Source of the DNA: Cephalotus follicularis
Taxonomy: Eukaryota; Streptophyta; Magnoliopsida; Oxalidales; Cephalotaceae
DNA length: 64,000 nt
Direction of reading: 5' to 3'
Assembly (NCBI GenBank): GCA_001972305.1
Contig: BDDD01000025.1
Span: 477,593 to 541,592 of the forward strand
Of the stretch, positions 3,025 to 45,115 are shown piece after piece. Position 1 is the first letter of the stretch. Each line of letters starts with the position of its first letter. Position numbers and translations under genes: made by a program. The notes under the pieces were generated by a model, which had not been told where the DNA came from, ran no database searches, and worked only from the letters and a program-made list of their open reading frames with translations.

Positions 3025-3365
3025 GCACTGTCGACCAAGTTTCTTCATGGCTGGGTAATATGCAAAAAAAACTTAAAATTAGTCGACCAATAAATCCTAT
3101 TAGTCAACTAAGTTCTCCATTCTAGGAAGTCATTTGCAAGCCAGCTTTGTTAGTCTACCAAGTCAATTTATTGGTCGACCAACTCTTTATTAGTCGACCA
3201 AGTGTGCCCTTTTAGTCGGCTGACAGTGGCTCTTTATTTTTGAGGGTTTACATGCTCTATTTTATTAGTTGACCAACTAATCTTATTAGTCGACTAATTT
3301 TTCTCGACGGTCAAATTTTTTAAATACTTAGTCGACCAGTTAAACAATTAATCAACTAATTTATG
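3025..3365. repeat. AGTCGACCAA motif array upstream of TATA
   Basis: About ten degenerate copies of a TTAGTCGACCAA-like unit, some in inverted orientation, are spread at roughly 20-40-base spacing, ending about 80 bases before the TATA box of this LTR. See the cross-family finding. Confidence 0.75.
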
Positions 3366-3442
3366 GCAGCTTTTAATAATCACTTGTTTTAAGGCTCCAA
3401 TGGCTACCTACCTACTTCCAATGGCTAGTAACACTTTTGTGC

Positions 3443-3450
3443 TATAAATT
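3443..3450 (+). promoter_or_regulatory. TATA box of solo Copia LTR
   Basis: TATAAATT lies about 570 bases into the LTR, at the expected U3/R position for Copia, with the motif array just upstream. Confidence 0.5.
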
Positions 3451-4604
3451 GAAGAGTTTTGAAGCCTAAGAATAGCAAGAAAAAACCTACAAAAGTGAGA
3501 ATCAAATCAAAGTGTTCAAGTTCATTATTCAAGATCATTTCATTTGTAAAAGCTCTCATTGTATCTTTCACTTACTTATTTTGTTTTGAGAGTTATGTGT
3601 AAATCATTCAAGCAATATCCAACCTTCTAGAGGTTACAAAAACATATTACATTATATTCAAAACAATTTTACAGTGTTAGTCATACCCTAGAAAGAGAAA
3701 AGAGGGTTTGAGTAAAGAACTCTCTTGGAGTGATTGAGTTCAATCGTTCTGAAGTTGTAAGATGTAGATTTGCTCCCGTAAACCAAATCAAGTCTTGTAT
3801 TTGGGTGAATAATAGTGGAACTCAAGAGTACTTGAGAAAGTGGACGTAGGCAACGAGTTCACCGAACCACTATAAATTCGTTTACACTCTTCTATCCCTA
3901 AACTTTTATTTACTTGCAATTACATTGTCATACCCCCTCCTCTTGGGTTGCTTATTTGACATTCAGACCTGTGACATCTCGTACCCTTAAGGGGTTTGTG
4001 ACGTCACCCAATTCAATTCAATCACTTATGTTGGGTACTAGTTAGTCTATTCTGCAAAGCGGAAGTCCATGCATACATAAAACTTTAATAATATGTGCGT
4101 GTGTCCATACAAAATCTCTTAATCACAAAACCATTAATACAACAAAACAAGTCATATCCATAAACATCCTTGAAACATAAACAATACATAGCAAGTCTTT
4201 TATATCCATATATGAAACCTTAAAATCTGTTTTTTATACCGAATAAAAATCTATACAAGTCCTTAACATGATACATAAAACTGTTGATAAAACCAGCACC
4301 CACACAATCCATGATCCATCCCCTATATGTTGTCTCTGGTCCTTATGCCCATGACCATTGTTACTAGGTCTAGATCCATCTGGCCCTGAACACAAATAGA
4401 TACCCCATCCCGAAGGCCTTCATAGAACACAACCCCTATGATGATGATATGAACAGGTATAGCATATATCAATGCATGTCATGGAAAAATGCGTGAAAAA
4501 TTATGGTTAACGCTGTCCTATACCTGCATATATATACAAGTAGTTAACTAAGCATACAATATCCATAAGTCCAGCAAAAACTCAAAGTTCAGAACATTTA
4601 GTGC

Positions 4605-5000
4605 TTGTCGTTGAGATCAGTAGGAGCTCACTAGAACTAGTTACCTATCATTGAGATTGATAGGAGCTCAACTAGTTACAGATTCATACAAATCATACCA
4701 GAGCGTATTATCGTCTGTCTGTTCGTATGCTCCCACCCGAAGGTGGCACGTGCTCGAGTCTAGACATCTAATGCCTACCGTTTATTTCTGTAGGAGCTCA
4801 ATAAAACTAGTGGCCTACCGTTGAGATCAATAGAAGCTCAACCAGTCACACACCTTACCCTATACATACATGTGTCCAAATCCCCCCCAAAGGCGCACAA
4901 GCTCTAGGATTAGACATCTAGTCGCTATCGTTGAGATCGATGGGAGCTCTACTAGAGTTAGTTGCCTATCGTTGAGATCGATAGGAGCTTAACTAACCAT
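4605..5000. repeat. Minisatellite, ~38-40 bp hairpin units
   Basis: Repeated, partly interrupted units contain CCTATCGTTGAGATCGATAG followed by GAGCTCAACTAG. The inner part (CTATCG TTGAGAT CGATAG) is an inverted repeat, and outer CTAGTTG/CAACTAG ends also pair. About five copies are recognisable, some diverged. The block lies 0.6-1.0 kb from the 3' end of its LTR. Confidence 0.75.
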
Positions 5001-5264
5001 ATACCATGTGTAACTCCAGTAGAGGGCTCATGTCAACTAAAAGTCGACACCACATACGCCATTAGAAATTACAGTTCACTGTACAGTGAACACATATATA
5101 GACTCTACCTTGCCCTTACCCTTACCCTGCCATGTATCTTTAAAACCCTGGGAAGAAACCCAGTCTTACCATACTCTAACCTAGAGAAGGACCTATGAGA
5201 AAAACTTTGAAAAACATGCTTTAAAACATTTATGTAAAAACTGTCTATCAAATTGGTGGTGCCT

Positions 5265-5480
5265 TGAGCTTAAGCGGCGACGCTCTGCGCTTAAGTGTCA
5301 TCAGTTAAATCTCAAGCATCTACACTTTGAGACAGAGCGTTGAGAAAATTTGGAGCAATAATCTAAGCGGTGACGCTTATGAGCTAAGCGTCGTCGGTTA
5401 GGCTGAGCGCTGTCAAAAAGAAAAAGCCTTGTCAGTTAGAAAACATTCCGTTTTGAAACCCGATCTAAGCAACGACGCTT
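5265..5480. repeat. AAGCGGCGACGCTT motif array
   Basis: Degenerate near-palindromic units (TAAGCGGCGACGCT, TAAGCGGTGACGCTTA, TAAGCGTCGTCGG, AAGCAACGACGCTTA) at about 20-60-base spacing. Read on the LTR's own strand this lies some 550-770 bases downstream of the TATA box. Confidence 0.7.
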
Positions 5481-12163: not shown

Positions 12164-12806
12164 ATAACAGTAAAATAACTTTCCCTCCCACACCCAAAAA
12201 CTTTCCCTCTCTCTCTCCCTACCTGTTACCCAGCCGACAAAATAACTTTCCCTTTCTCTCTCTCTCTTTCTCTCCCTCCCTGTTCCCATCCCTTTCTCTC
12301 TCTCTCTCTCTCTCCCTCCCTGTTCTCCTTCTCTCTTCCCCAACCCTCCAACTCCGACGATGGTAACAATCATGAGCGCTACATAAAACACCGCTTCTAG
12401 TTAAATATACGCCATTGTCCTCTCCTCTCTCTCGAGACCACTACACAAAACCCAGAATCGAAGACACTAAGCCACCATCGCGCTACCCACAACCACAACC
12501 ACAAAGGACAAAGCCACTATCGCGCTACCCATATCGAAGCCAGTACCAAGATCACATCCACCACCCTCGATTTTCTTGTTATTGCAGGTCATCTTCCTCT
12601 ATACCCATTTCAATTTTTGACGCTTGGCTTCACAAAGTTTCAGGCTTTGATTGATATAGTTCGTTTTTGTTGCCCGGGTTTCATTTTAATTTTTTTTTAT
12701 ATTTTCTTAATTTTTTTTTAATATGACCAGTTTGTAATCAATAAAAAAGTTTTTAATATGACCGATCATATATGGATGCAACGTCGATGTAATGATATTC
12801 CCTTTC
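12164..12806. repeat. MULE left terminal inverted repeat
   Basis: Starts ATAACAGTAAAATAACTTTCCC and ends at GTAATGATATTCCCTTTC. It includes CT-rich tracts (12200-12345) and a CpG-richer segment (12410-12600). It pairs with 16480-17116 along its full length. Confidence 0.85.
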
Positions 12807-15315: not shown

Positions 15316-16250
15316 ATTGTAGATTGAATAAAATAGGAACTTTTTTGAAAAATTAGCCAAAATAAAAATTAAACAAACAATTCAAAATAACAATTATACT
15401 AATAATATAAAGAGATAGGGAAGAAGAATGCAAACACAGTTTTATAGTGGTTCGGCTTAAACTCTTGCCTACGTCCACTTTTCTCAAGGACCTCCTTGAG
15501 TTTCCACTAGTATCCGACCTCGAATACAATATTTGTGATTGACCTTAATCACACATACAAGGGTTCACTTCCCTCAAATATTTTAACAAAAACAAGGATG
15601 AATAGATTTTTGTATCACCTCTCAAAGGCTAGATATAGACTAAATTTGCTCACAATAATTGTTTGAAATAAGATAAGAACAACTCAGAATAATGCTATGA
15701 TTGTTGTATGACTTGATGATTTTTCTTTGTTGTTCTTGAGCCCTATTTATACTGTTTTTGGTGAATGAGCCATTGTGTAATGTCTTGTAGCCATTGGAAT
15801 AAATTTGGAAACTTTGGCCTTAATTTGTGCGTTGATAAGATATCGTCTGGCTGTAATTCCCGATCAAAGCGTCGCCGATTTCAATATAAGCGTCGACACT
15901 TAAAGTGCTGCTGCTTTGAGATTAACTGTCGCCTCTTATAAACGCTGATGCTTTATGTCATTCGTTATTTTCAGGCTTTCAACTTTAACTGCTGGTACTT
16001 TGAATACTCTGTACACGAACTGCTGGCGCTTTGTGCAATTTGTGTCTTCGACACTTTCATAGTATTTCTCGACGCCTTCAACCTCACAAGCCCAGAAGCG
16101 CTGACGCTTTCAATTTGACAATCGACGCTTTGTCTGGTTGAACTGATTTGTATCAGGTATGTCTTCTTGCTTATCTTGCACAAATCAAAACCATATGATA
16201 AATTGAGGGTCAATTAGAAGCTTAAATTAATATAATCATATTATTCCCGG
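15310..16250 (-). mobile_element. Solo Copia-like LTR inside the MULE
   Basis: The sequence TATAGTGGTTCGGCTTAAAC followed by CCTACGTCCACTTTTCTCAAG (15444-15486) is the reverse complement of the landmark block found in the Copia LTRs at 2877-3965 and in G. TATTTATA at 15744-15751 is the TATA box on the minus strand, and the motif array at 15855-16140 is upstream of it. It interrupts the MULE right after the transposase. The ends are approximate: MULE-like sequence resumes around 16250. Confidence 0.7.
15855..16140. repeat. AAGCGTCGACACTT motif array
   Basis: Degenerate units such as AAAGCGTCGCCG, AAGCGTCGACACTT, AACGCTGATGCTTT, AGAAGCGCTGACGCTTT and ATCGACGCTTTG at about 25-40-base spacing. 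Located upstream of the minus-strand TATA box. Confidence 0.75.
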
Positions 16251-16479
16251 TAGGGATGACATGTTGGACACATATATAAGAGAAGAAACTACCAGGAAGC
16301 AGGTATTCTTCACGTATAAGAAAGACATACACCGCTGCAGTCTTACCTTTGTCAATCGCGAGTGATGGTAGTACATTAATCAGAGGATATATCCGTTAAA
16401 AAAGGACAAAAAAATTTACAAACAATGTGGTCCATACATACCATAGATGTTCTGTTGTAGATAATTCCAAAATTATGAA

Positions 16480-24776: not shown

Positions 24777-27700
24777 CTACAACAATACCTTCATAATAGG
24801 AATAGTCTTATTCCTCAAAATTTTCTCCTTCCTGTCCAGAATCTGTATCGGCCGTTCTTCATACGATAGGTCATCACTAATAAAAGCAGGGTCATAGCTC
24901 AATATATGAGAGGGGTCAGGTACGTATTTCCATAGCATGGAAACATGGAATACACTGTGTACATTCGACAAGTTGGGCAGCAGTGCTATCTTGTATGCAA
25001 CTTCCCCAACTCTGTCCAGCATCTCATACGGTCCAATATACCGTGGAGCTAGTTTCCCTCTCATGCCAAACCTGTGTATACCTTTCGAAGGTGAGATTCT
25101 CAAAAACACATGATCTCCCTTCTCAAACTCCAACTTCCTTCTCCTTTTGTCGGCATAGCTCTTTTGCCGACTCTGTGCGGCAATCAATCTCTTCCTGATA
25201 ATTTTGACCTTATCAATGGTCTCTTGTAAAAGATCAGGTCCCAACACTTGTTTTCACCCACTTCATCCCATCATATTGGTGATCTACACTTCCTTCCATA
25301 CAAGGCCTCATAAGGAGCCATTCCAATGCTATAATGATAGCTGTTATTGTAAGAGAATTCAATGAGTGAAATGTGATCCTCCCAACTCCCAGCAAAATCA
25401 ACAAGAGAAGCCCGAAGCATATCCTCAAGAGTCTGAATAGTGCGCTCCGACTGTCCATCAGTTTGGGGGTGAAATGCAGTACTGAAATTCAGAGTTGTTC
25501 CCATCGCTGCTTGAAACTTCTTCCAAAACCTGGAAGTAAACCTTGCATCACGGTCACAAACGATGCTGAACGGCATTCCATGCAACTGCACTATCTCCCG
25601 TATGTCTAATCGAGCCAGCTTTTCGATGGAATATGTCATGTTCATCAAAAGAAAGTGAGTAGACTTAGTGAGTCTATCCACGATAACCCACACTGCTTCA
25701 TGTCTATTCTGTGGCCTCAGTAGACCCGACACAAAGTCCATGGTCACATGCTCCCATTTCAACTCAACCACTGGCAAGGACTGTAACAATCCAGTAGCCT
25801 TTTGATGCTCAGCCTTCACTCTCTGACAAGTCAGACACTTTGCCACATACTCGGCAATGTCTCTCTTCATACCACACCGCCAGTAGTTCCTCTTCATGTC
25901 ATGCCACATCTTAGAACTCCCTGGATGAACACTATAATGCGATTTATGAGCTTGTTGTAGTAGTTCATTCCTTATGTCCTCATCATCCGGGACACATACT
26001 CTCCCTCGGAACCTCAGTATGCCATTTGAATGTACGGAGAATTCAGAATTTGAATCTATGTTCTCCCGAACATTCCACAATTCGGTGTCACTATACTGGG
26101 TAGTCAGAATACGATCCAGAAGTTCCAGTTGCGCTATAAGATTAGCCACAATAACCACTCTGGAAACCATGAATGAATTCTACCTCTGAAAATCCTCCAA
26201 TAACTTCCACTGTGAAACCATCGCACTAGCAACCATAGCCTTGCGACTCAGCGTATCAAAAACTACATTAGCCTTCCCTGGTTGGTATTTAATATTACAG
26301 CTATAGTCATTGAAGAATTCAACCCACCTTCTCTATCTCATGTTTAGTTCCTTCTGAGAAAACAGATACTTCAAACTCTTGTGGTCAGTGAATATCTCAA
26401 ATTGTGCACCATAGAGATAATGTCGTCATTTCTGCAAAGCAAACACTATGGCAGCCAACTCAAGATCATGTACGGGGTAATTCTCCTCGTATGATTTCAG
26501 TTTCCTTGATACGTAGGCAATTACCTGACCACGTTGCATGAGAACACATCCCAAGCCCTTCCCAGAAGCATCACTATAAACAGTAAAACCCTCATTACCC
26601 TCTGGTAATGCCAACACTGAAGCCGAAATTAACCGACTCTTCAACTCCTGAAAGCTTGCCTCACAAGAATCATCCTATACAAAACTTGACTTCTTTTGAG
26701 TCAACCAAGTCAATGGAATCGCAATCCTTGAGAACCCCTCAATAAACCTTTGATAATAGTCAGCCAATCCCAAGAAGCTACGAACTTCAGTAACATTCTT
26801 CGGCTGCGGCCAATCCACAATACTCTCAATCTTTCCAGGATCCAAAGATAATCCTTCACACGATACAATGTGACCAAGAAAAGTCACATGATTCAGCCGA
26901 AATTCACACTTACTGAATTTGGCGAACAACATTTCCTTCCGTAGATGCTGCATGTGATCTTCAATACTCTTCGAATAAATCAAAATGTCATCGAAGAAGA
27001 CAACCAAAAACTGATCAAGGTAACGTTGGAACACTCTGTTCATCAGACACATAAAAGCTGCAGAGGCATTAGTCAAACCAAACGGCAGTATTAGAAATTC
27101 ATAGTACCCATATCTGGTTCAAAAAGCAGTCTTCTCAGTGTCACCTTCATGGATCCTCAACTGATCATAGCCTATCCTCAAGTCAAGTTTAGAGAACACA
27201 GTTGAGCCTTGCAATTGATCGAACAGTTCCTCAATGTGTGGAAGAGGATACTTGTTCTTCACGGTCACTTGATTCAACAGTCTATAGTCAATGCACAACT
27301 GCATCGACCCATCCTTCTTTTTCACAAATAAGACCGGCGCTCCCCATGGTGATACACTCGGTATGATAAACCCCTTGTCAAGATAGTCTTGTAACTGCAC
27401 CTTCAATTCGTTCAATTCGGCAGCAGCCATACGATATGGAGCATTAGAAATAGGAGCTGTTCCCGGTAGCAACTCAATACTAACCTCCATATCTCTCTCT
27501 GGCGGTAATGAAACAAGATCATCTGGAAATACATCAGGAAAATCGTAAGCAATGGGAACCTGTTCCAGACTAGGCGTACCTTTCGTATGATCAATCACAT
27601 AAGCCAAATAACCTTCACATCCCTTCTTGAGATATCTCAATGCTTGAGTATAAGAAATAATAGGAGCAGAAGTCATCTTCTGTCCCATGAATTTGAACAC

Positions 27701-28085
27701 AACTCCATTCGATAAATGAAAGGTCACTTCCTTATTGTAGCAATCAACACAAGATCGATGGGCATAGAGCCACTCCATTCCCAATATAATATCAAAATCT
27801 TGGATCGGCAATACAATCAGATCAGCGAGTAACTGCACCCCAGCTATCGTGATCTAACAATCCTTCACTATAGTATCAGGCATCAAACAACACCAGCTGG
27901 AGTACTCACCTCCAGTACGTAGGGCAAACAATCAATCATACAATGCAAATTGCATAGAAAATATGATGCAATAAATGAGTGTGTAACGCCCGGATCAATT
28001 AAGTCATGAGCTGATATACCAGATATGAAAATGGTACCTCCCACAATAGAAGTAGATTCTGGCACATAATCCTTAGATAAGGTAT
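24777..28085 (-). mobile_element. pol region of Gypsy F (fossil)
   Basis: Domains on the minus strand, by position. Protease lies about 27770-28085 (IFISGISAHDLIDPG). Reverse transcriptase lies about 26900-27420 ([44 protein letters not shown]). RNase H lies about 26250-26620 ([18 protein letters not shown]). Integrase lies about 25271-26000, with an HHCC finger then CDRDARFTSRFWKKF and [12 protein letters not shown]. The C-terminal domain lies 24777-25247 (GKLAPRYIGPYEMLDRVGEVAY). These would together copy and integrate the element. The coding sequence has several breaks and is not functional as it stands. Confidence 0.85.
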
Positions 28086-28249
28086 ATGTTGGCCTTTGCC
28101 ACCCCGATTTATTGCATTTATATATGTTATTTTGATGATTAACAAACATAGATTACTTGTATGCATAATTCTTTAAGTTATAACTTCATATACTCACTTG
28201 ATTTTATGTCCAAAGTTGTGCCAAGAACATTTATGCAGATACAGGCCAA

Positions 28250-28745
28250 TCCAGTCGACTGGCAAGCAATCCAGTCGACTGCCCAAGATTGAGTAGTGGA
28301 CTGCCAGAGGTTGTGTAGTCGACTGGTTCTTCAACCAAACTCAGCATTTGCAGGAACACCAATCCAGTCGACTGCCACAGGGGTCCAGTCGACTGCCACA
28401 GGACACCAGTCGACTGCCATGGGGTACAATTTCAGGCAGTAGCTTCTGTATCTTTTTAACACCCAATCCAGCCGACTGAAGCAGGGCAACAGTCGACTGC
28501 CAGAGGATCCAGTCGACTGCCAGGGAATCCAGCTGACTGTTTTCAATTGTGCAATTTCAGGCAGTAGCATTTGTAATCTCCATTTTCAGCTCAACAGCCG
28601 ACTGGAACAGAGCAACCAGTCGACTGCCAAGCATACCAGTCGACTGCCTAGAGGATCCAGTCGACTGCCCCACTACCAACGGCTATATTCAAATGTACGC
28701 GCCATCAATCCAGCCGACTACCGTACAAATCTAGCCGACTGGATT
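28250..28745. repeat. CCAGTCGACTGCC motif array
   Basis: About twenty units of CCAGTCGACTGCC and variants CAGCCGACTGG or CAGTCGACTGG. Spacing is 15-45 bases and the units are nearly palindromic around GTCGAC. This is the densest array of its kind in the window. It ends about 40 bases before the TATA box at 28786. Confidence 0.85.
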
Positions 28746-28785
28746 TGTAACAGACCTTTAAAAATAGATCCGTTGGAGGCTCAAC

Positions 28786-28793
28786 TATATAAA
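28786..28793 (+). promoter_or_regulatory. TATA box of LTR H
   Basis: TATATAAA in the context TCAACTATATAAAGAAA, directly downstream of the GTCGAC array. Confidence 0.5.
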
Positions 28794-29095
28794 GAAATTT
28801 GGAGGTCTTGCACATATGATCAAGCATTTAAGTTGAACATTCATTCTAGGAATATCAAGCAACATCCAAGCAATTCTAAACATCAAAACAGAGCAACACA
28901 AGTGATCAAATTTTGTAATATCCAACCTATTGTGAGGTTTAGTTTCAAAACAATACTTCATTCATTTTGATTGTAATAGGGGAGTGAACCCTAGTGAAAT
29001 TGGGGAGTGAACCCAAAGAACATTGTAAGTGATTAAGGTCAATCACAAAGGTGTACCGAATAGCACCCGTAATTGTATTCACAATCCCTTTTCCG

Positions 29096-30250
29096 CTATC
29101 CCTCCGTGAAGGACCAACCACTAGCTCCAGCACCCCTTTGCATTTGCTCTTTCACTATCGGACAATCCTTCAGCATATGCTCTTGCGAGCCACACTTCAA
29201 GAACTTCCCCATCTTCTTCCAACAAACACTTTCATTATGGTTCGAGAGACCACAGAAAGAACACACTCCAGAACCCTGTTGGCCACTTTGATTAGGAGTC
29301 CTTGAACAAGAAGTATTCCGTCGAGAAACTCCTTGCCCCTGGTTACCAGACTTTGATGACCCGGCAGGATTTTTACTTCCCTGCCCTTGTGAATAAGCGG
29401 ATCTCAATTGAGAATTACGAGATCTCTCCATCCTTCTCTCATTTGCATCTACCTTCAGAATCCTTGCTTTCTCTATAACATCCACAAAAGAAGTTAATTG
29501 TAGTACCACTAGCTTAGACCTGATGTCTGGCCTCAAACCTTTCAAGAATCTCCTTATCTTCCTTGACTCTCCCTCCACTAGGTAAGGCGTGTGTCTAGCA
29601 AGCTCATTGAATCTAGTCTGATATTGAGCCACCGTCATGTCTCCTTGACGCAGCTCTAGAAATTCGGCCTCCCTCCGATCACGCTCCATCTGTGGAACAT
29701 AAGCGTCACTAAACTCAAACTGAAATCTGTCCCAAGTTATGTCAAGATCAAGGGATTCCCACTTCGCTTTAGTCATCTCCCACCAATGGGTAGCCTCTCC
29801 CCGTAGTTGATACACTGCAAAGTTCAACTTTTGCTCATCTGTGCACTCAAGAGCAACAAAGATTTTAATCATATCCCTCATCCACTGTTCCGCTATGGTG
29901 GTATCAAGTTCACCCTTGAATATCGAAGGATTCTACCTAATGAACCTCTCCAGATCTCTCCCAAATACACCAGCCTGATTAACCTCAGGTGCATTCCGGT
30001 ACCCTTGATTCACTTCATACATTTGTCGCAACTGTTCCATATTCGCTGCATTGGCTTGTATCTGCTGTTGAAAGAGATCAGTCATACGGTCAAAATTACT
30101 CCTTTCATTGTCCACTGGCGAAACATTTACTCCTTCATTCATTTGTGGTATATCCCCTCTTTCATTCATTTGCGGAACATTTCGTGCACTGGCGGCGCAT
30201 TTATCCCTGCTTCCACTCTTTGCCTTCCCTGCTTACCCCTTCAATGATCC
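29096..30250 (-). mobile_element. gag region of Gypsy F (fossil)
   Basis: The minus strand shows the retrotransposon gag domain (ALECTDEQKLNFAVYQLRGE, RREAEFLELRQGDMTVAQYQ) and a CCHC-type knuckle near 29190 (KCGSQEHMLKDCP). The N-terminal part lies at 29933-30250. It would form the virus-like particle in the cytoplasm. It is broken like the rest of F. Confidence 0.8.
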
Positions 30251-30343
30251 ATTTTGTCCCTATAAGGAATGAGTTAATCATCAGGAACCATTCAATAAAT
30301 CACCGAGGATAATATCTCAGCGGTAGCTTATAATTTAATATAA

Positions 30344-30355: not shown

Positions 30356-31104
30356 TGTCTATCACATCCCGTTTTCACTTCCCATATAAAACCATGGATA
30401 TCAGTTCATCCAGCATTCATTAAAATTCAAAAAATTTTAAAAACTTCGCAGAAGCATTCAATAATACTGGATTATATAAAATATCCGCATGCAGCCCATA
30501 CTACATGCTCCCAATCACAATACAAGTTATACATTACATATTGAAAATGTAACTATAACATAACAGAGTATGACTTTATTACAATTCACTCACTTTAACA
30601 ACCTTAGATAAGAAGCCTCCAAGTATAGCTTCAGCAGCTCGTGCAATCCTTCACTTCAATCTGTAATTGTAGGTATTAACCGTTGTCCTCACTTGGCTAA
30701 GTAGGAAATATGCATGACAATGAACATATGAATGTAATCATGCATGACAATTATATCATTAAACACTATATATATATATATATATATAAGCAATCATGCT
30801 AAATGGCTACAATCAATCACTTATCAAGAATACCGCACAAGGGTACAATCAATCACTACACTAGGTGGGTGTCATCTCGGGCTACCTCCTAGCTCAAAAA
30901 CACTTCAATAAAATCTCTTTTGAGAAAACTATAAAACACTTGATAAGATCCCATTTGGGAAACGATAAAACACTTCACTAACTGTACCTCACTTGGAGGG
31001 AATAGCAAAAATCCTCACTAAGTTCCCTTTTGAGGAAACAAAACAATACACTTAGTTTTGTTTTAAAAGCTGTAATAGAAAACCTTTGATTATGCATATA
31101 GCAT

Positions 31105-32124
31105 TGTTGACTTTTAGTCTCAATCCTAGGTTTTAATGATTACAAATTTGCATTTAACTTTGCTGCTTTCTGTGCAAGAAAAGAAATAAACAAAACAAAG
31201 AAGTGCAGAAACAGAACAAAGCACCGACGGTTACAATCAAAGCGTCAGCGCTTTATGCCAAAAAGTCGACGCCTGAAAAGCGTATATCTGCCATTAAAAC
31301 CAGTGAAGTACAAAATTAGTTGAAGTACTCAAAGTGGCGATGCTTAGGATTAAAGCGTCAGCGCTTTATGGCAAAGAGTCGACACTGAGAACAAAGCGTC
31401 GACCGACAAAACGAGAAAATTCAAATTTAACTCATAACGGTAACCTGAGCGCCGACGCTTTAGGCAATACCGTCGACGCTTTGGACGGCTGGAATAATGG
31501 CAGAACTTGTTTTAAAGGGCCAACTTTGTAGCAACAACTTCCAAGAATTCTCCAACGGCTATATTTCTTCACCAACTGCTAGAATCAAAAGAATGCTACA
31601 AATACAAGCCAAGAAACAAGATCAAAGAACCAAGGGAACAACATTTGAACACCCAAGCTCAAACTTGCACAACTACAAAAGAACATCAAGCTAGAGTTTT
31701 ACACTTTCATATCCAAAGCTTGTAACTAAGCCATAACTTTCATATCCAACCTTTAAGAGCTCTTTGTAAACACAAACCAATTCTTTTATCATTCATTGTA
31801 AAAGAGGGAAGTGAACCCTTGTAAGGTGTTTAATTGATTTGCACCCGGAACCCAAAATCAAGTGTAAGGTGGTTTGCTTTGATTTGCACCCGCAAGCCGA
31901 AATCAAAGGTTGCTAGTGGTATCTAGTGGATTCTCAAGGGGTTCTTGAGAAAGTGGACGTAGGCACGGATTTTGCCGAACCACTATAAATCATTTGCACA
32001 CTCTCTAACTCTCTCTCTTTATTACTTGTTATTTTTTTTGTTTCCGTTGTTTATATTCATAATTTAATTTGTTAATTCCGCAAACAAATTTATCCCTTTA
32101 AAGGTTGCCATATAGTTCCCATCA
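31105..32124 (+). repeat. 5' LTR of element G
   Basis: TGTTGACTTTTAGTCTC to TATAGTTCCCATCA. It contains the GCGTCGACGCTTT array (31220-31490) and the GTGGACGTAGGCACGG...CCGAACCACTATAAA block near 31955-31988. Confidence 0.9.
31220..31490. repeat. AAAGCGTCGACGCTTT motif array (5' LTR of G)
   Basis: Units CAAAGCGTCAGCGCTTT, AAAAGTCGACGCC, AAAGAGTCGACACT, AAAGCGTCGACCG, GAGCGCCGACGCTTT and ACCGTCGACGCTTT, many near-palindromic. The paired copy is at 33860-34120 in the 3' LTR, ending about 110 bases before that LTR's TATAAATA (34230-34237). Confidence 0.85.
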
Positions 32125-32126
32125 AT

Positions 32127-32138
32127 TGGTATCAGAGC
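32127..32138 (+). promoter_or_regulatory. Primer binding site of element G
   Basis: TGGTATCAGAGC, complementary to initiator tRNA-Met, two bases inside the 5' LTR end. Confidence 0.85.
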
Positions 32139-32177
32139 GGGTTTTTATCATTAATCTTAATTGAGATAAATTGATCC

Positions 32178-33191
32178 ATGGCAACCATTTCATGTTTTAA
32201 TGATAATAAGTCTATTAGCATGCCACCATTTTTTGATGGAAATGATTATAATCAATGGAAAATTAAGATGTTCACCTTTATCCAATCCCTTGATTATGAT
32301 CTTTGGGATATGATTGTTTTTGGTCTAGAATTGCCTAAAGAATATATTTCTAAACCAAGAATTAAATACAATGAAAAGGAAAAAGAAATGTTAAAACTAA
32401 ATGCTAAGGTCAAACATATTATTTTTTGTGCTTTAAGTTCTAACGAATTTGATCGTATTTCTTCTTGTGAATCGGCAAAGGAGATATGGGATAAGTTGGA
32501 AAAATTTCATGAAGAAAAGAACGTTGAAGGAGTAACTTCATGTCTCATGGCTATGGAAGAAGATACAAGTGGAGATGAAAGTGAAAATGAGGTAAATTTT
32601 ACATTCGAAGAATTGCAAAACGCCTATGAAAAATTGTATGTTGAATATGAAAGTATTTGCTTAAAGAATAAATCTCTAAAGAAAAATGCTATTTCTATTT
32701 CTAAAGAAATTGAAAATCTAAAGAATGAAAATAGCAAACATATAAGTGAAATTGATTCTCTTCAAAGTAAGAATAGCTTTTATATGAATGAGATTGACAT
32801 TTTAAATGTTTCTTCAAAATTGTCAATTGACTTTGAGGAAGAAAATAAAAAGCTAAAAATTGAGATTGATGCTTTGAAGAAATCCCTTTCTACTTTTTCA
32901 AATAGTAGTACTAAATTGGATAATTTGTTAGGACTTCAAAGGTGTGTGTTTGACAAAGCCGGTCTCGGCTATGAAGAAATAAAAAATGTCAAACACTTTA
33001 AAAATTTCTTTGTTAAGAAAAATGAACCTCAAATTTGTTGCAATTATTGTGGTAGATTAGGACATATATCTACCTCGTGTATTTTTAGAAATAATCTTTG
33101 TAATGGTAAAACTAGAAAGATTTGGGTTCCGAAAGGAACTCTTGTGACTAACTTGCAAGGACCCAAGTTCAAATGGGTACCAAAAACTTAA
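32178..33191 (+). CDS. Copia-type gag protein of element G (337 aa)
   Basis: An open frame from ATG 32178 to the stop at 33191. The N-terminus has the Copia gag fold signature (PPFFDGNDYNQWKIKMFTF, residues 16-35), then UBN2-like motifs (SSNEFDRISSCESAKEIWDKL, residues about 91-111). A long acidic and Lys/Glu-rich stretch at about 135-240 is predicted to form a coiled coil. A CCHC knuckle follows near residue 288 (CCNYCGRLGHISTSC), with a basic C-terminus ending FKWVPKT. The role in the family is nucleocapsid assembly and RNA binding in the cytoplasm. The frame is uninterrupted. There is no pol downstream; 33192-33723 is a non-coding AT-rich stretch. Confidence 0.85.
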   Translation: MATISCFNDNKSISMPPFFDGNDYNQWKIKMFTFIQSLDYDLWDMIVFGLELPKEYISKPRIKYNEKEKEMLKLNAKVKHIIFCALSSNEFDRISSCESAKEIWDKLEKFHEEKNVEGVTSCLMAMEEDTSGDESENEVNFTFEELQNAYEKLYVEYESICLKNKSLKKNAISISKEIENLKNENSKHISEIDSLQSKNSFYMNEIDILNVSSKLSIDFEEENKKLKIEIDALKKSLSTFSNSSTKLDNLLGLQRCVFDKAGLGYEEIKNVKHFKNFFVKKNEPQICCNYCGRLGHISTSCIFRNNLCNGKTRKIWVPKGTLVTNLQGPKFKWVPKT

Positions 33192-33737
33192 ACTTTGTTT
33201 TTGTAGGTGTACTTGGAGTTAATTTCAAGATGTTCAAGTACACAAATTTGGGTGAGAAAGCTTTAGTTGAGGGGGAGGTATTGATATAATGTTGTTTCTT
33301 TTAATCTTTTATTTAGTATTTTATCCTTAAATTGGTATCTTTCAATAGGTATCCCTTTAAAAATTGTTTATTTGGTGTCAATTCTTTGACATAATCTTTT
33401 TGATGCTAACAAAAAGGGGGAGAATGCTTAATGCTTAAGAAAAAATTGATAGCTTATGCTTAGGAGGAGATAGATATGAAATGTGCTTTTAATGAAAAAT
33501 ATGTTAAAGGAGAGTTCATGGTAAAGGGGAAGCTAAATAAGATTATTTGCATAAATCTCCATTTTGAAAAATGAAAATTAGATGACATATTAAAGGGGAG
33601 TTTATCTAAAGTTTTTATGTTGGCATCTAAAGAAAATCTTTGTCTTGGTATCTAAAGAAAATTTCTTTTTGTCTTCAGTTGGTATAAAATTTTTCCTTAA
33701 TGTAGCAAATTTTTGTAATCATCAAAAAGGGGGAGAT

Positions 33738-34757
33738 TGTTGACTTTTAGTCTCAATCCTTAGTTTTAATGATTACAAATTTGCCTTTAACTTTGCTGCT
33801 TTCTGTGCAAGAAAAGAAATAAACAGAACAAAGAAGTGCAGAAACAGAACAAAGTGCCGACGGTTACAATCAAAGCGTCAGCGCTTTATGCCAAAAAGTT
33901 GACGCCTGACAATCGTATATCTGTCGTTAAAACCAGTGAAGTACAAAATCAGTTGAAGTACTCAAAGCGGCGACGCTTAGGATTAAAGCGTCAGCGCTTT
34001 ATGGCGAAGAGTCGACACTGAGAACAAAGCGCCAACCGATAAAACGAGAAAATTCAAATTTAACTCATCACGGTAACCTAAGCGCCGACGCTTTAGGCAA
34101 TACCGTCGACGCTTTGGACGGCTGGAATAATGACAGAACTTGTTTTAAAGAGCCAACTTTGTAGCAACAACTTCCAAGAATTCTCCAACGGCTATATTTC
34201 TTCACCAACGGCTAGAATCAAAAAAATGCTATAAATACAAGCCAAGAAACAAGATCAAAGAACCAAGGGAATAACATTTGAACATCCAAGCTCAAACTTG
34301 CACAACTACAAAAGAACATCAAGCTAGAGTTTTACACTTTCATATCCAAAGCTTGTAACTAAGCCATAACTTTCATATCCAACATTTAAGAGGTCTTTGT
34401 AAACAAAAACACATTCTTTTATCATTCATTGTAAAAGAGGGAAGTGAACCCTTGTAAGGTGTTTAATTGATTTGCACCCGGAACCCAAAATCAAGTGTAA
34501 GGTGGTTTGCTTTGATTTGCACCCGCAAGCCGAAATCAAAGGTTGCTAGTGGTATCTAGTGGAATCTCAAGGGGTTCTTGAGAAAGTGGACGTAGGCACG
34601 GATTTTGCCGAACCACTATAAATCGTTTGCACACTCTCTAACTCTCTTTCTTTATTACTTGTTATTTTTTTTGTTTTTGTTGTTTATATTCATAATTTAA
34701 TTTGTTAATTCCGCAAACAAATTTATCTCTTTAAAGGTTGCCATATAGTTCCCATCA
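33738..34757 (+). repeat. 3' LTR of element G
   Basis: Same length (1020 bp) as the 5' LTR. TATA box TATAAATA at 34230-34237; array at 33860-34120. Confidence 0.9.
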
Positions 34758-36215
34758 AGCATCAATAATAAATCCCTTGAAATCACTTTATAGATATATA
34801 ATATCTATAACAATATATCACTTTCAATAATGTGCAATCACTCAATCATTACAATCATTGGATGATTCTAGGAATCAAACAAGAAAAATGCAAGCAACCA
34901 TATGCTCAGAATGTAAAACAGCCACTATTGGCGTCAACGTGTATATTAGGCGTCAATGTGTACTTATGTGTCAACGTGTATCTTAGGCATTAACGTCATT
35001 TACACGTCAATATTCAACAATGGGCGTTAATGCATTAAAGAAGGACCTTAGGCATCAATGTTCGATATTGGCATCGGCGTATTAAGGTAGGAACCTTAGG
35101 CGTCAACGTCGTCCCTTTAGGCATTGATGTCCTGGAAACCAGTAGGTTTACGCGTCAACGTCATCCTTTTAGGCATCAACGTAAATCTTCCTAACAGTAC
35201 GAAACATCAACTGTTTCCACTAAGGCATTAACGTCAATCACTTAGGCGTTGACGTAAATCATCCTAACAGTACAAATCATTGACTATTTCCAGTTATGGC
35301 GTTAACATCAATCACTTAGGCGTCGACGTAAATCAAATGCAGCAAGACAATTTGTTCCACAATCACTTCAATCAGGCATGGATTCACACTTATGATGAAT
35401 ATGCAAGAATTCACAATCACCATAACACAATATACAAGTCATATGTTCATAAGCATGTAATAAACCCTGCCTTTGATTCCAAGTTAGGAATCGAAAGTCC
35501 ACTTATTTAAGATTTAATCCGATCCTCAGCTTCTCCAAGCTTCAAGATCCGGTTCGATCACTCCAAGTCCAGATTCTAATCTCTGGTTCTCAAGCTCCTT
35601 CTCTCGGTTCAACAATGGCGGGACAATATCTCTCCCTCACTTCCATTCATGGTAGCCTTTTGGAGAAGATGAGAAGGGTGTTTTTAATGGAGTCTTCACC
35701 TCTCTCTCTCCTTCCTCAAGGCATGGCAGATCAATGTGACCTCCATCAATCGCCTCTCTCTCACTTTTTGTCAGTGCAGAGCATGGGGAATGAGAAGTGT
35801 CATAGTTTTGTCCTTCACGCATCTTCTGTCCTTGTTTAACTTACTCTGCCGACAGCTTAGGCGTCAACGTCAACGCTAGGCGTCGACGCGTTGACTTCAT
35901 GCCTTGGCGTTAACAAGCTCCCCTTAGTCGCGTTAACGCCTATCCCCTTCAGATCACCAGCAATGGACACTAATGTCCTCGCATGGTGTCAACGCCTTAA
36001 GGCAAGAAGCCTTAAGCGCGTTTCAGTGTTACTTGGCATTGATGCGCAAGTGCCCTGATTCCTTATAATTTCCATCACTTAACTCATCCTTTCATAACCA
36101 CTATAACAATAGCCAGATAAAAGGACACTTAGCAAATAAATCTCATATCAATGTATAATTTTATTCATGAATTATACAATATACATCGAATTAAAATTGC
36201 GGTCATTACAGCCGA

Positions 36216-37721: not shown

Positions 37722-38850
37722 CTAATTTAACAAAGTGAAAAAATAAGAACTTTTTTAGGCTTCTCAAAAAAATCAACTTAGTTAATAACAATAATCAATC
37801 AATGTGCCATGCAATAATCAAATAGACAATCAAATTACTAAAAGTAAAGAGAGAGTGAGAAGGATGAAAACTTCGTTTTAGAGTTGTTCGGTTAGACTAT
37901 TGCCTACGTCCACTTTTTCCAATGACTTCCTTGATTTTCCATTAGTATTCACCTGAATACAACCTCGATTTTATTTCCAAGTACAAATCGTAACGCCTTA
38001 CAATTTTGGTGATTGACCTCAACCACTAGGCTTCTTCACTCAAAACCTATCAAGATTTCACTCCTCTTAATTACAAAATAAGGAGAATTTAAGTGCTTTT
38101 GGTGACAAGTTATTAACCTCACAATAGGTCAAATATTGCACAAAAGAATAGCTTTCAACATTCAATTACAGATAAACAAGATGTAAGCTTTTGAGTGTAA
38201 CAATGGCTCTTTGAGAATTTTTGAATATTTTGATTAAATGTACCTCAAATTGTTGTAATCTCTTATCTTGTTGATGTTAGTTGTAGAGCCTTTATTTATG
38301 AGTTCTGAATGATTTGTAGCCATTAGAGCATCTAAATCAAGACTCCCATGATTGCAGCAAGCTGTTGACTAGTCGTTGCTTGTTTTATGTGATCTAAGAC
38401 ATTGACTTCTTTCACCAAAACTTTGACTTGTTTTGACGTGGCACTAGGCATTGACTTGTCTTCAAAATAAGCTCAACTTAACCAATTAGAATCCCAGCAC
38501 GTCGACTTGTTCATCATAACACGTCGACTTGTTCTTCTTCATTTCCCAACGCGTCAACTTGAATTGATTAAGAAGTCGACTTGTATATTTTGAGCTTCTA
38601 CCAAGATTTGTGTTGCATTATGTTGACTTCTTCATCTTGGACGATGACTTGATCTTCAATCGTTGACTTGACTTTGAAATCTGAAATTTTGAACGTTGAC
38701 TTGTTCTTACTAAGTACATCTGCACAATTCAAAATTGCCAGCACATCGACTTATTCTTATGAACACATTGACGTGTTTAGTCAAAAGATATACCTTTGCA
38801 TTGCATTTATGCATTTTGTGCAACTGCTTCTTATGCTTCTCAAGGATCAC
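37722..38850 (-). mobile_element. Copia-like LTR (minus strand)
   Basis: The block GAGTTGTTCGGTTAGAC with CCTACGTCCACTTTTTCC (37881-37920) is the reverse complement of the Copia LTR landmark. TTATTTAT at 38292-38299 is a TATA candidate, and a GTCGACTTGTTC array lies upstream of it (38345-38780). Both ends are approximate. Confidence 0.6.
38345..38780. repeat. GTCGACTTGTTC motif array
   Basis: About fifteen units of CGTCGACTTGTTCTT and CATTGACTTG variants at 20-40-base spacing. A low-complexity open frame in the same strand is a by-product. Confidence 0.8.
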
Positions 38851-40739: not shown

Positions 40740-42857
40740 AATGCTTCGTCATTGAAATGAATGAGATGGGAAAAAGTGAAAGGGGTAGTAAAGGGAAGAG
40801 GGATCCTCAAAGAAAAAGAGAAAAGAAGATGGGGATGATGAAGACAAGCATCATTTGGAGTTGAATCCTTCAAAAGCTCTGATACCTCCTAAACAGTCCA
40901 GTGGTGAAGGATTTTCATCTAAGGTCACTTTGGAATCAATCATGGCAAAACATAAGAATATGCAAGTCGAAATGAAAGACATACACTTGGAGTCAAATGA
41001 ACTAAGGGATCGATTGAACCGAAGAGAAGCTCAAAGGACCAAGACCGTATTGGCATGGATAGAGGGGAGGTTTGCTTAGCTAAAATGAAAGTTGGCTGCC
41101 AAAGGGTACATTCATCTTTCCAATCAAGGAGTAGAGAAGGAAGGAGAAGAAAGGGGAAAGAAAAACACAAAAGAAGAAGAGCAACAAAGGATGGAAATAG
41201 TTTCATGTATATCACATTTCTATCGAATCTCATGCATCTCATTTCAAAAAAATAAAAATCAAGTTCTAAATGTTCTTTGAATGTTTGTATGAATTTCATT
41301 ATGAATATATTCTACTTAATTTATGTTTGAACTATTTTGTTTTGGTGATCATAGAAAGTTTCCATGATTCTTCTTATCAGTCTCATGCTTTAAATTTCCA
41401 CGATTATTATAGTTTTGACATGGAAATTAAGTTTATTAAATTGATAAATGTGGTTATATGATATTGAGATTTGTGATAAATTTGAAGTAAACATCTTATA
41501 AAGCTTGAACTTGTTTATTGGTGATCTCATTCATTATTAAAGTTTTAGTTTTCCTTTATGGCTATAAGCTTGTTCAAATTTTGAGAACCTTTCATAAATA
41601 GGCTTATAAACTGACTTTCTATCACCTCATTGTTTTTTTAATCTATCATAAAACCATTTACTTATTAAGTAAGAGTTTTAAGTATTATCTTTTAGAAATG
41701 CTCTGATTAAGGAGAGTAAAAATTGGTATTTAAAGGTTTACTTAGTTTTATTTTACTCACTTATGCTTTAAATTGTGTCATTGTCAAAAAAAAAGGGAGA
41801 TTGGTGGGTTAATCCTTTGATTTTAATCAAACATTTGAATTTAGTCTCTATTTGCTATGGCCTTCAACAAAAAAACTTGATGAAATGTTAATTATTTTGC
41901 GTGTATGTTTAAATACATAAAGATTAGTTATTCATAAATTTGACAATATGTGCATATTAATATGCGGCACTTTGATGGCTAATGATTATAGGTTGGAGTG
42001 TTGGGCTTGTAAAATACCATAGCCTTGTAGATGAACTAATGTCTGACATGCAAGCTATAGAAGTCGACGTCCATAGGCTACAAACCAACTAGAGACTTTC
42101 AAGTGGATGGAAGTCGATGTGCACGATATAGAATTCAACGTCTACGGATTAAATTTCAACGACAGACTTTACATCAGACAGAGGTCTGACATCTAAGGCA
42201 TAGATTTCGACGGGTATTGCATTTTGACAGTTATATTGGCTAGTTTATTTGTTACAAAAAAATAAGAATTTTAGTTATTTACTGCATCAAATGGCTAATA
42301 ACTTCTCCAAAGGTATAACTACAACAACTATTCAACATTAAATCGATCAAAAAAATTCAAAGAAATCAAAGATTTGTAAGCCAAGAACTCTCAAGCTTTA
42401 GCTTTTTTATATTTTCTTCCAAATCTTGAGTGATTCGTAAGTTAGCTATATTCATTCTCTATCCAACCTTATAGAAATTATATAAAACTTTTAAACACGT
42501 TCTATTCATTCTTGATTTGAGTATTTTGTTAAACCTTATAGAGAGAAAGGTTGAAAATCGTTGATAAGTGATCTTGAGGAGATTCATGAGAAGTGTGCGG
42601 TGTTCGATTTTCATCCGATAAACCAATTAATCAGTGTTTTATATTCGCGGAATACAATAGTTGATATCAAGTGAAGTTTGAGGAAGTGGATGTGGACAAA
42701 AGTTAGTCGAACCATTATAATTCTATTTGCATATGTCTTTCTCTTCATACTCTTTATTTATTACAATTTTGTATTAAATGGCTTAATCAAAAAATTTTAA
42801 TTTTTCGCTTAAAATCCAATTTAGCCCCTTCTTGGAATGCCTAAGTGGATCTACACA
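40740..42857 (+). mobile_element. 3' part of a plus-strand LTR element with its LTR (fossil)
   Basis: A polypurine tract (AAAAAAAAAGGGAGAT, 41786-41801) precedes an LTR starting TGGTGGGTTAATCC at 41802. The LTR contains GTCGACG motifs (42058-42215) and the landmark GGAAGTGGATGTGGAC...CGAACCATTATAA (42684-42721). Upstream, 40740-41260 has a plus-strand frame with a charged helical segment (MAKHKNMQVEMKDIHLESNE). Its strand is opposite to the neighbouring piece at 39120-40720, so the two meet head to head near 40720. The 5' LTR is not seen and the 3' LTR end near 42857 is approximate. Confidence 0.5.
42058..42215. repeat. GTCGACG motif cluster
   Basis: Sparser units: GAAGTCGACGTCC, GAAGTCGATGTGC, ATTCAACGTC and TTTCGACGG, in the U3-like part of the LTR starting at 41802. 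Confidence 0.6.
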
Positions 42858-43161
42858 ATATATGTAATCTTACGAATAGAACGATTTAAGAGTAAACCTT
42901 ACCGACGTTTCAATTTTAACTGTATGATCACATCATAGTATTTGTCCTGAAGCCAAACTCTTTGGGCATATATTATAACATACTTATGCATATTAAAGCA
43001 TGTAAATGAACTAAATACAATGATTAATAAAATTACTGACATTGGACAATATTGTTATTAATTACAATCCTAATAGACTAATACATTGCACTATTTATCC
43101 CTAACACCTTGGTAACAAAAAGGCTTGATAAGGGCACCTCGCGATGTGAAAAGACCGTTTC
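42858..43161. other. Unassigned AT-rich stretch
   Basis: I see no gene, LTR landmark or repeat here. It is the left flank of solo LTR I; its continuation after that LTR is 56085 onward, so it may be original intergenic DNA upstream of the cytochrome b561 gene. Confidence 0.4.
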
Positions 43162-43944
43162 TGTGATGCCCCACGTCCGAAGGGCCGAACACGTAGTATC
43201 AAGTGCAAATAATATACAGCATTCGGGCCTAGGTATCATATTAAAAAACGGGATAAATCAAAACTTTATTACAAGCATATATCATATACTAAAATGTAAT
43301 ACAAGCATCTTCTTAAATATTACAAGTCCCAAATAGAAGTACATCGCTTGGTCCAAATTCAACATAATACAATACATGCAATATGAATAAAGCATAAAGT
43401 CAGTCATTACTTTCTTCAAGTCTTCTTATGAAAAAGAGGAACTAGCAATCCCCTCAAGAACTGGTTCCTGAAGCGTTACTAGAAAACACATAGATCCTCC
43501 ATCCTAAAGGAGGGGTCAGCCATAGAGCCAAATAGATATATCCCCATACGTAGATTGTGCTATATGCATGAATGCATTATCATATAATGTGTAAGTGCGC
43601 AGTATGTATGGCATATAAAATGCATGAATGCAAATTACGATCTACCAGTCGTATACAACCGTCTCACACCAGTGTATAAGAGTGAGATTCAGTATCATCG
43701 GTCATATCAATCATCTAACAGACAATCAATGGTACAATGCAAGTACCCTCACATCATATCAAATCAGATCAAATCCAATCCAATCAAGTAAATCCTATAT
43801 AGAGCGTGTGACCGCAGATCTGTACCAGTCCAATCAAGTCAAATCAAGTCAGTATCATGTGGCAATATAACCTCCGGACAGTAATCCTGTAGAGAGGACG
43901 GCTATACCGGACCAATGGATTTAAATTGATAGAGAAACCCACTA

Positions 43945-44110
43945 GGCCCTCTTAGTGGTAAGTGTCGACTAAGTACGTACTTAGTGGTAAGTGTCGACTG
44001 AGTAGACACACAGTGGTAAGTGCCACTGTGTGCATAAATTGTGGTAAGTGCCGCCCAAGTGCACCCTCGATGTAAGTGCCATCGTGTATGCGACGGTAAG
44101 TGTCATCTAG
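43945..44110. repeat. GTGGTAAGTGTCGACT minisatellite, hairpin units
   Basis: Five to six units of ~27-30 bases around GTGGTAAGTGYC. Several are inverted repeats, for example ACTAAGTACGTACTTAGT (perfect palindrome) and CACAGTGGTAAGTGCCACTGTG in shortened form. It lies about 0.8-0.95 kb from the 3' end of LTR I. Confidence 0.75.
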
Positions 44111-44824
44111 CATGTTCACAGTAGTAGGGGCTACTGGAGGGAAATAGTTCTACCTGTCGGCTGTTCAAATAGTATTATTGCCCGAAGGCTAGTGACGATC
44201 CAATCAGGAAAAGTATATGGTAAAAACTATCATCTCACATCCTAACTAGGGTCATGAGATATCTCTAATAGGAACAATCATCAATACAGATCAAATACAT
44301 GTCCATAGTAAAAGCTAATAGGCGGAGGAGATCTATCAGGAGGAATAGACAGGCTTAAAGTCTTCTTATGGCCAGCCTAATTAGAAATCGCTAAGCACCT
44401 ATGACGTAGGTAAATCAAACAATCAAAGTCAATAATAGTTGGTAACAATATCATTAACCACTAGATAACGGATGTCTAATCGGTGTAGACACCACGCAAA
44501 CCCGACTAGAGAATCACTAGTGTGCCTATGGTCTCAGTCAGCCACTCTATCCTCAACACGACTATTCCATCGTTCACAACGACGGGTCGGTCGATTATAA
44601 TACTGTGGTTCAATTAGTTCGTCAAGCAATCTAGTGGTCAAAGGAGTGGTTAGTCAATGGTGTCAATCGAAAGTGGTACACAATCAATTGATCTGCAGAA
44701 AGATCAACATGACCTGCCTAACCAGAGAAAAAACGGTTGAAAAGGGCTTGAATGATCTCAAGATCGATCCGGTCAAGCAGTTGTTTTGAAAATGATCGAA
44801 AATAGTTTAAGTAGTAGAAAACAG

Positions 44825-45115
44825 TGCCTTAAGTGATGACGCCTTCGCACTAAGCGACGACACTTTGGTCGTTGAATCCAGTTATGTTAATGGTGTACTA
44901 TGCAGCAACAGTTAGACTAAGCGGCAATGCTTTATCTGTCATCGCCTTGTGGCCACGCTTAGCAAGTGTCGGCAGCGCTTTGCGCCAAAACGAAGCCAGG
45001 TTAAGCGGTTACGCTTAACATCAAAGCGCCAACACTTTAATCGGGTTTGTATGAATTGCAAGTGTTAACTGTGCTAAGCAACGACACTTCTGGGTAAAGC
45101 GTCGACACATAGACA
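44825..45115. repeat. AAGCGRCGACRCTT motif array in LTR I
   Basis: Units TAAGTGATGACGCC, TAAGCGACGACACTT, TAAGCGGCAATGCTTT, TTAAGCGGTTACGCTTA, AAAGCGCCAACACTTT and AAAGCGTCGACAC. Wording is nearly that of the array at 5265-5480 in a different LTR. Confidence 0.75.

Follow-up and report, generated by a model that had tools for sequence, protein, structure and literature searches.

Helically phased GTCGAC arrays in Copia and Gypsy LTRs of Cephalotus follicularis are candidate U3 enhancers

A 64,000-nucleotide stretch of Cephalotus follicularis DNA (contig BDDD01000025.1, positions 477,593 to 541,592), here called the window, is plant DNA with many nested transposable elements, and long terminal repeats (LTRs) of its Copia and Gypsy retrotransposons carry arrays of the palindrome GTCGAC. 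We suggest that these are enhancer arrays of the upstream LTR region (U3), whose helically phased sites would be bound by a host factor, possibly of AP2/DREB type, and which Copia and Gypsy elements may have gained in parallel or partly by exchange; we give this reading about an even chance. The wider proposition, that most array-bearing LTR retrotransposons here, Copia and Gypsy alike, share one syntax of GTCGAC palindromes two or three turns apart with family-specific symmetric flanks, is tentative and may well prove too broad. An earlier note on this DNA had described arrays with TCGAC and GTCAACG cores, suggesting WRKY or bZIP factors as readers; the pattern is larger and more ordered than that note saw, and WRKY/bZIP is not the label that suits it best.

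Results

The arrays are real and far above chance. Their core is the palindrome GTCGAC, beyond mere TCGAC: it is the window's top hexamer by z score (46 sites against 5.0 expected under an order-1 Markov model, 9.2-fold), and it again ranked first across 20 control regions of this 1.58-Gb genome, placed at fixed positions on other contigs and holding 175.6 kb without N (112 against 12.9). Other hexamers enriched in these regions (L013-L032) were GACGTC (51 against 12.9) and, mildly, GCATGC (67 against 28.7). Ten further 4-kb regions held 18 GTCGAC sites in total and five of the ten had none, so the sites are clustered. Triples, that is, three cores with 4-30 bases between neighbours, occur 73,561 times per strand across the genome, against 311 for the reversed pattern and 217 for CTCGAG, a control of equal composition with the same TCGA centre; CGTCGACG pairs number 22,834 against 65 in their control. 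The outer bases are symmetric at 122 of the 175 sites with enough flank, giving AGTCGACT, CGTCGACG, GGTCGACC or TGTCGACA. GTCAAC and GTTGAC are CpG-transition forms of GTCGAC, so that the two cores described earlier can be one motif and its decay. An Rfam search gave no match at gathering thresholds, and open-access literature searches returned, among the matches listed and as far as their excerpts go, no report of GTCGAC or AGTCGACT arrays in retrotransposon LTRs; among these matches, one from plants was a cloning primer and another was bacterial.

The earlier note had listed arrays at 14 intervals. Within them (4.1 of 64 kb) lie 91 of the window's 139 TCGAC/GTCGA words, an enrichment that is circular because the intervals had been picked for the TCGAC word; the genome-wide test is not circular. 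The GTCGAC excess stood, and two intervals hardly hold the core: 5265-5480 has neither TCGAC/GTCGA nor GTCAAC/GTTGAC, and 44825-45115 has two TCGAC/GTCGA words, both from one GTCGAC. Intervals 15855-16140 and 42058-42215 have a single relaxed core each, and one array, at 35863-35988, is additional to the list.

Nor is the claim supported that the intervals represent about ten unrelated LTRs. An LTR block, GTGGACGTAGGC...CCGAACCACTATAAA, is common to the Copia LTRs; its profile matched 20 times in the sequence searched (seven times in the window, two of the seven weakly), and its exact pattern is found 6,108 times on one genome strand and 6,228 times on the other. This one block is found downstream of the intervals starting at 3025, 15855, 31220, 33860 and 38345 and, as a weak match (31 bits), of that at 42058, and the interval at 28250 lies inside sequence 77% identical to a block-bearing locus; seven intervals therefore belong to one clade, called Copia because the nested element of the window and locus L023 carry copia-type gag adjoining such LTRs. 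Three more (23398, 24290 and 34925) all lie in the two LTRs of one Gypsy element; 20-240 and 18265-18440 were assigned to neither. The 53 sampled array clusters formed 28 families at 80% identity and 11 at 70%; L006, L007 and L009, which overlap L005 and L008, were left out of the family, alignment, spacing and variant counts. The AGTCGACT and CGTCGACG flavours are both found in the Copia clade, in Gypsy elements and in component 8, an unclassified set in which L020 and L024 have Gypsy-type gag nearby, in opposite orientations relative to the shared sequence.

The arrays lie on one side of the block. The 1 kb upstream of its 20 matches holds 54 GTCGAC and the 1 kb downstream one, with little downstream sequence at L004, L049 and L050 and L004 itself chosen by its array pattern. 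At least one GTCGAC lies within 1 kb upstream of 17 of the 20 matches, the Copia sites falling mainly 400-800 bp upstream, and both LTRs of the nested Copia element bear the array. The block is probably the promoter because it contains TATAAA, and a repeated motif inside an LTR, upstream of a putative promoter, is the arrangement of a U3 enhancer array. By the earlier note, equal core density in LTRs and in composition-matched non-LTR repeats would have refuted its reading; this did not hold in the delimited elements of the window: GTCGAC is found in array-bearing LTRs and is absent from their internal regions and from the LTRs and internal region of the big Gypsy element 45552-55656, a natural array-free contrast nearby. 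Among 20 primer-binding sites with upstream sequence, GTCGAC lies within 1 kb upstream in six of six with the block and in two of 14 without it. The latter figure is no proof of absence, since 1 kb does not reach the 5' half of a long Gypsy LTR; for two of these 14 just 262 and 431 bases were available, and an array pattern had served to choose L003.

Spacing between cores follows the DNA helix. All pair distances of 24-160 bp in 28 arrays, one per 80% family (n = 308), have a period of 10.40 bp (R 0.42, as high in none of 2,000 jittered sets); the period is 10.50 bp in 11 arrays, one per 70% group (n = 112, R 0.485, 0 of 1,000 jitters), and 10.35 bp in seven window arrays (n = 44, R 0.65, 0 of 1,000). 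For repeated words that are not part of a core (n = 770), R at 10.4 is 0.075. The commonest step is two helical turns, not one: among pairs listed from the first contigs, 38 of 50 CGTCGACG pairs are 19-22 bp apart and nine are 29-33 bp apart (10-40 allowed), as are 74 of 89 AAGCGTCGACGCTT pairs at 19-22 bp (16-44 allowed). Two-turn spacing recurs across flavours A and B, the 3025 and 38345 types and the array at 20-240. This phasing appears to mark the arrays as read on double-stranded DNA from one side. A period near 10.4 bp would also suit a structural element, in which helix-phased CpG palindromes position nucleosomes or bend DNA with no specific binder; we consider this very improbable, since one exact hexamer is selected and CTCGAG, of the same composition, is not, and since two turns, not one, is the most frequent step. 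A function as RNA hairpins was rejected, without folding, because the 24-160-bp spacing follows the pitch of B-DNA, which an RNA hairpin does not need.

Copia and Gypsy array LTRs belong to different elements by gag and pol, and their spacers, compared after masking the cores (3 Copia, 8 Gypsy and 4 component-8 arrays; 500 shuffles), share some words. Gypsy and component 8 have 27 8-mers in common in one orientation (shuffle mean 4.6, maximum 17). For Copia and Gypsy the counts are 23 and 28 (mean 10.7, maximum 25), one orientation exceeding all shuffles; Copia and component 8 have no excess (7 and 6; mean 4.1, maximum 16). The excess is inflated because some shared words are unmasked core variants (ACCGACTG). 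The earlier statement that these arrays are not one copied repeat thus holds in that the flanks differ and Copia and component 8 have no excess, and is qualified by the spacer words that Gypsy shares with component 8 and with Copia. Such sharing, strings such as ACAGGGG that recur, and flavour A units of about 21 bp in three groups are what one would see if recombination or template switching had carried one or a few arrays from one LTR family to another and neutral slippage had then enlarged them, with no present function. We judge that history unlikely: slippage of a 21-bp unit would give spacings of 21, 42 and 63, and those observed are 30, 52, 72 and 93; cores outlast flanks; the spacing is common to arrays of flavours A and B, of the 3025 and 38345 types and at 20-240; and the excess is lacking between Copia and component 8. 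Wholesale copying as the source of all arrays was rejected, the spacer sharing being too little for all of them. Different gag and pol, differing flavours and common phasing lead us to favour parallel evolution, with pieces of array perhaps exchanged between some families. The proposal of enhancer-like arrays in LTRs of both superfamilies gains support as a prediction, with flanks that differ and a core and two-turn spacing that recur.

Diverged copies keep the core. Where different loci align at no more than 80% identity, 55% of 297 core hexamers are identical against 17% of 8,847 other NNCGNN words, a baseline that takes in alignments without arrays; hexamers in the flank, 9 bases from the core, are identical in 16% of 532. 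Isolated cores, with no neighbour within 60 bases, were included as a control because BLAST alignments can favour matching cores, and are identical in 68% of 44. When each locus pair is represented by a single alignment, the figures are 50% of 141 cores against 16% of 5,305 other words, and 56% of 18 isolated cores against 24% of 33 flank hexamers. A test in matched trinucleotide context, made on the 28 of 131 alignments that hold a core, found the central CpG positions kept in 93% against 78% (Fisher test with counts halved, p 5e-5). Changes at position 2 do not follow ordinary mutation (p 0.004): T to C occurs in 11.8% against 9.8% expected, and T to A or G in 2.2% against 11.3%. Judged from these alignments, the cores appear to outlast their diverging surroundings.

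The tolerated variants point to a candidate reader. Two or four turns from an exact core, the one-base variants are mainly GCCGAC (43 in phase, 1 off) and ATCGAC (34 and 3), with GTCAAC/GTTGAC at 20 in phase and 7 off; in-phase variants thus mostly retain the CpG. At position 1, ATCGAC (34) compares with CTCGAC (1) and TTCGAC (4). The four most enriched in phase of the 16 NNCGAC words are GTCGAC, GCCGAC, ATCGAC and ACCGAC, the fourth on nine cases, which together make RYCGAC; overall enrichment in random regions is 7.8 for GTCGAC, 3.3 for GCCGAC and 2.4 for ATCGAC. Genome-wide, the second unit two turns on in flavour A is AGCCGACT 52,558 times (reversed 129), the CpG-transition form AGTTGACT 10,136 times (reversed 201), AATCGACT 5,975 times (reversed 6) and AGACGACT 952 times, close to the 859 of the reversed pattern. 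That AGCCGACT exceeds AGTTGACT five-fold runs against free decay because, in matched context outside cores, CpG change (12.8%) is slightly more frequent than T to C (9.8%); amplification of a few families could be an alternative source of this excess. In the window's Copia LTR fragment (array 28250-28745) and in L016 the sense-strand one-base variant is AGCCGACT, and in Gypsy arrays (e.g., L030) AGTCGGCT stands on the implied antisense strand, the same sense-strand form as in Copia; a strand bias of half-sites in both is possible.

WRKY or TGA-type bZIP factors, the readers suggested earlier, bind TTGAC and TGACG, and GTCGAC would be a CpG version of their sites, possibly read as TTGAC when methylated. 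CpG transition of GTCGAC does yield TTGAC on one strand, GTCAAC/GTTGAC are commoner in phase than off it, and the array at 38345-38780, which mixes TTGACTTG and TCGACTTG, is W-box-like (TTGACTT). TTGAC is not the preferred form elsewhere: GTCGAC and GCCGAC both outnumber GTTGAC in phase, GCCGAC beats the TTGAC-making change in phase (43 against 20) and genome-wide (52,558 against 10,136), and the CpG is the best-kept part of the core. That assignment is therefore weakened outside the 38345 array, and we think it quite improbable as the general explanation. Auxin-response TGTC sites were dropped as candidates because only 9% of strand-wise counts have a T just before the core.

With reservations, the in-phase variants are a better fit to RYCGAC. 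Canonical CBF/DREB sites are RCCGAC and are bound by monomers; barley HvCBF1 (CBF1) reportedly binds RYCGAC. Like the latter, the arrays have Y at position 2 followed by CGAC, and the strict form with C at position 2 does not describe them, GTCGAC outnumbering GCCGAC. The RYCGAC word is entered as CBFHV or DRE/CRT I in the available excerpts of three papers (PMC4482647; PMC7570135; PMC4408094), and no other NNCGAC words are as enriched in phase here as its four; those listings, as excerpted, concern sites in host-gene promoters, unlike the palindromic, GTCGAC-dominated arrays of these LTRs. The match supports, without proving, a putative AP2/DREB-type reader.

Discussion

We suggest that the arrays act as upstream (U3) enhancer modules of LTR retrotransposons, a function that we infer from position, constraint and phase. 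Rows of GTCGAC would be sites for a host protein that reads double-stranded DNA; whole-turn spacing would set the bound proteins on one DNA face, where they may cooperate and switch on LTR transcription, and elements that keep or regain phased sites would leave more copies. Less surely, the protein may be of the AP2/ERF DREB/CBF type, proposed because the common variants give RYCGAC, the barley CBF motif, and a GTCGAC palindrome presents two such sites, one on each strand. Lineages of both Copia and Gypsy would have reached the same syntax in parallel, perhaps aided by exchange of array pieces.

Several observations weigh against this proposal. Twelve of the 14 block-less LTRs adjoining a primer site have no GTCGAC within 1 kb, and one of the 11 groups at 70% identity holds 34 of the 53 clusters, which we have taken as partly nested insertions. 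High-copy families inflate the genome-wide counts, pair distances inside one array are not independent, and the alignments are not independent of one another. The second spacing peak of flavour A, at 27-28 bp, is not a whole number of turns, and neighbour spacings of at least 24 bp, taken alone, peak at 10.65 in the 28 arrays (0 of 2,000; 10.55 with flavour A removed, 1 of 2,000) and at 10.80 in the 11 arrays (14 of 1,000). Position 1 does not depart from ordinary mutation in aligned copies (p 0.27). Between 80 and 90% identity, cores are kept less than other words (26% of 23 against 38% of 1,773), 16 of the 23 coming from L022 aligned with the window element. Repeat pairs within a locus at 90-100%, LTR pairs included, keep cores in 85% of 33 against 66% of 497, 12 of the 33 from one duplication in L030, which counts against selection as the cause because none is expected on copies after insertion. 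As to the reader, ACCGAC is not enriched across random regions (40 against 35.0; 1.1), AATCGACT is rarer genome-wide than the CpG-transition AGTTGACT, and a DREB reader explains neither why GTCGAC dominates nor why flanks are symmetric.

The U3 regions of tobacco Tnt1 and Tto1 hold tandem short motifs acting as stress enhancers. The arrays here resemble them in being tandem short motifs in U3, and differ in that Tnt1 and Tto1 are one element each, with different words. Repeated gain of host-factor sites in COPIA LTRs is already known: in the Brassicaceae, according to the excerpts at hand, LTRs of ONSEN, COPIA37, TERESTRA and ROMANIAT5 contain putative heat-responsive elements, mostly species-specific, and that of ONSEN arose by duplication of a proto-motif (PMC5059998). 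As there, candidate host-factor sites occur here in LTRs of several families; on the same excerpts, the Brassicaceae elements are heat shock factor sites, with the correlation drawn on COPIA families, unlike the very numerous, helically phased sites in both Copia and Gypsy elements described here.

Dense motifs could also be targets of a chromatin factor and not activator sites, read by a VANC-like anti-silencing protein or by a host silencing or demethylation factor. In Arabidopsis, as partial text of one study relates, VANC proteins bind short motifs that form dense tandem repeats in non-coding parts of their own transposons, with fast turnover (PMC5735166), and the arrays here are likewise dense, tandem and family-flavoured, in non-coding transposon DNA, with variants. 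VANDAL elements differ in being DNA transposons with their own binding protein, to which motifs peculiar to single VANDAL families are matched, and the same text gives different targets for VANC21 and VANC6, with no core crossing superfamilies; here one core serves Copia and Gypsy, and the nested Copia element, the one examined, has gag as its only frame of at least 150 aa. Promoter-type binding accounts equally well for helical phasing and U3 position, and we regard a chromatin-factor role as an outside chance, preferring the phased U3 enhancer.

LTR enhancers are usually described family by family; here one word recurs in two superfamilies and holds helical phase. If one syntax is indeed shared, a single host protein family, assembling along one DNA face, would control much mobile DNA and would make evolution converge across superfamilies. 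It would become possible to measure how competing elements converge in their regulation, with a binding protein to seek, and each array insertion would bring a ready, phased enhancer near host genes.

Features of the window

Table 1. Arrays and the LTR elements that carry them, in window coordinates.
Feature	Position	Strand	Details
Array, CGTCGACGT flavour, in repeat not assigned to a family	20..240	.	core spacings 22, 51, 22
Array, TTAGTCGACYAA flavour, upstream of Copia block 3784-3896	3025..3365	+	spacings 52, 21, 71, 19, 22, 53, 21, 42
Conserved Copia LTR block, GTGGACGTAGGC ... CCGAACCACTATAAA	3784..3896	+	
Degenerate AAGCG....CGCTT units, weak	5265..5480	.	no GTCGAC core
Copia LTR piece within MULE transposon	15418..16140	-	block 15418-15537; degenerate array 15855-16140, one exact core
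Array, four GTCGAC, grouping with L031, L040, L041	18265..18440	.	spacings 93, 29, 30
3' LTR of minus-strand Gypsy element	22215..24658	-	arrays 23398-23765, 24290-24480
Gypsy internal region: integrase, protease/reverse transcriptase (RT), gag	24780..29932	-	GTCGAC only inside inserted Copia LTR
Copia-clade LTR fragment between Gypsy gag and protease	28087..29080	+	array 28250-28745
5' LTR of Gypsy element 22215-36210, interrupted by nested Copia element	30360..36210	-	arrays 34925-35345, 35863-35988
5' LTR of nested Copia element	31105..32124	+	array 31220-31490 (AAGCGTCGACGCTT flavour); block 31897-32010 with TATAAA
Copia-type gag open reading frame (ORF; PF14223) of nested Copia element	32175..33188	+	sole stop-to-stop frame of at least 150 aa there
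3' LTR of nested Copia element	33738..34757	+	96.3% identical to 5' LTR; array 33860-34120
Copia LTR	37855..38780	-	block 37855-37968; array 38345-38780 (T[TC]GACTTG flavour); spacings include 22, 30, 22
Weak array upstream of weak Copia block match (31 bits)	42058..42737	+	one exact core
Degenerate AAGCG....CGCTT units with one GTCGAC, weak	44825..45115	.	

The two arrays of the Gypsy 3' LTR consist mainly of decayed GGCGTCAACGT units, with one GTCGAC and seven GTCAAC/GTTGAC, and the array of the inserted Copia fragment (28250-28745) is of CCAGTCGACTGCC flavour, with 11 GTCGAC and frequent spacings of 20-22. AGCAT, read from the sequence, adjoins both ends of the nested Copia element (31100-31104 and 34758-34762).

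The array-free Gypsy element has 2.6-kb LTRs (45552-48143 and 53113-55656) that are 95.3% identical. A MULE-type transposon at 12164-17116 has inverted ends of about 640 bp (12164-12806 and 16480-17116; 94% identical) and an open frame of 531 aa that encodes FAR1 and MULE transposase domains. A tandem array of an 80-bp unit at 40256-40500 (3.1 copies, 87% matches) is separate from the GTCGAC arrays. PF20167 (Transposase_32) matched weakly, below cut-off in both cases, to ORFs at 39721-40176 of the window and at 2157-2891 of L005; the latter sits just past a CAGTCGACTG array, and another kind of element may thus also bear arrays.

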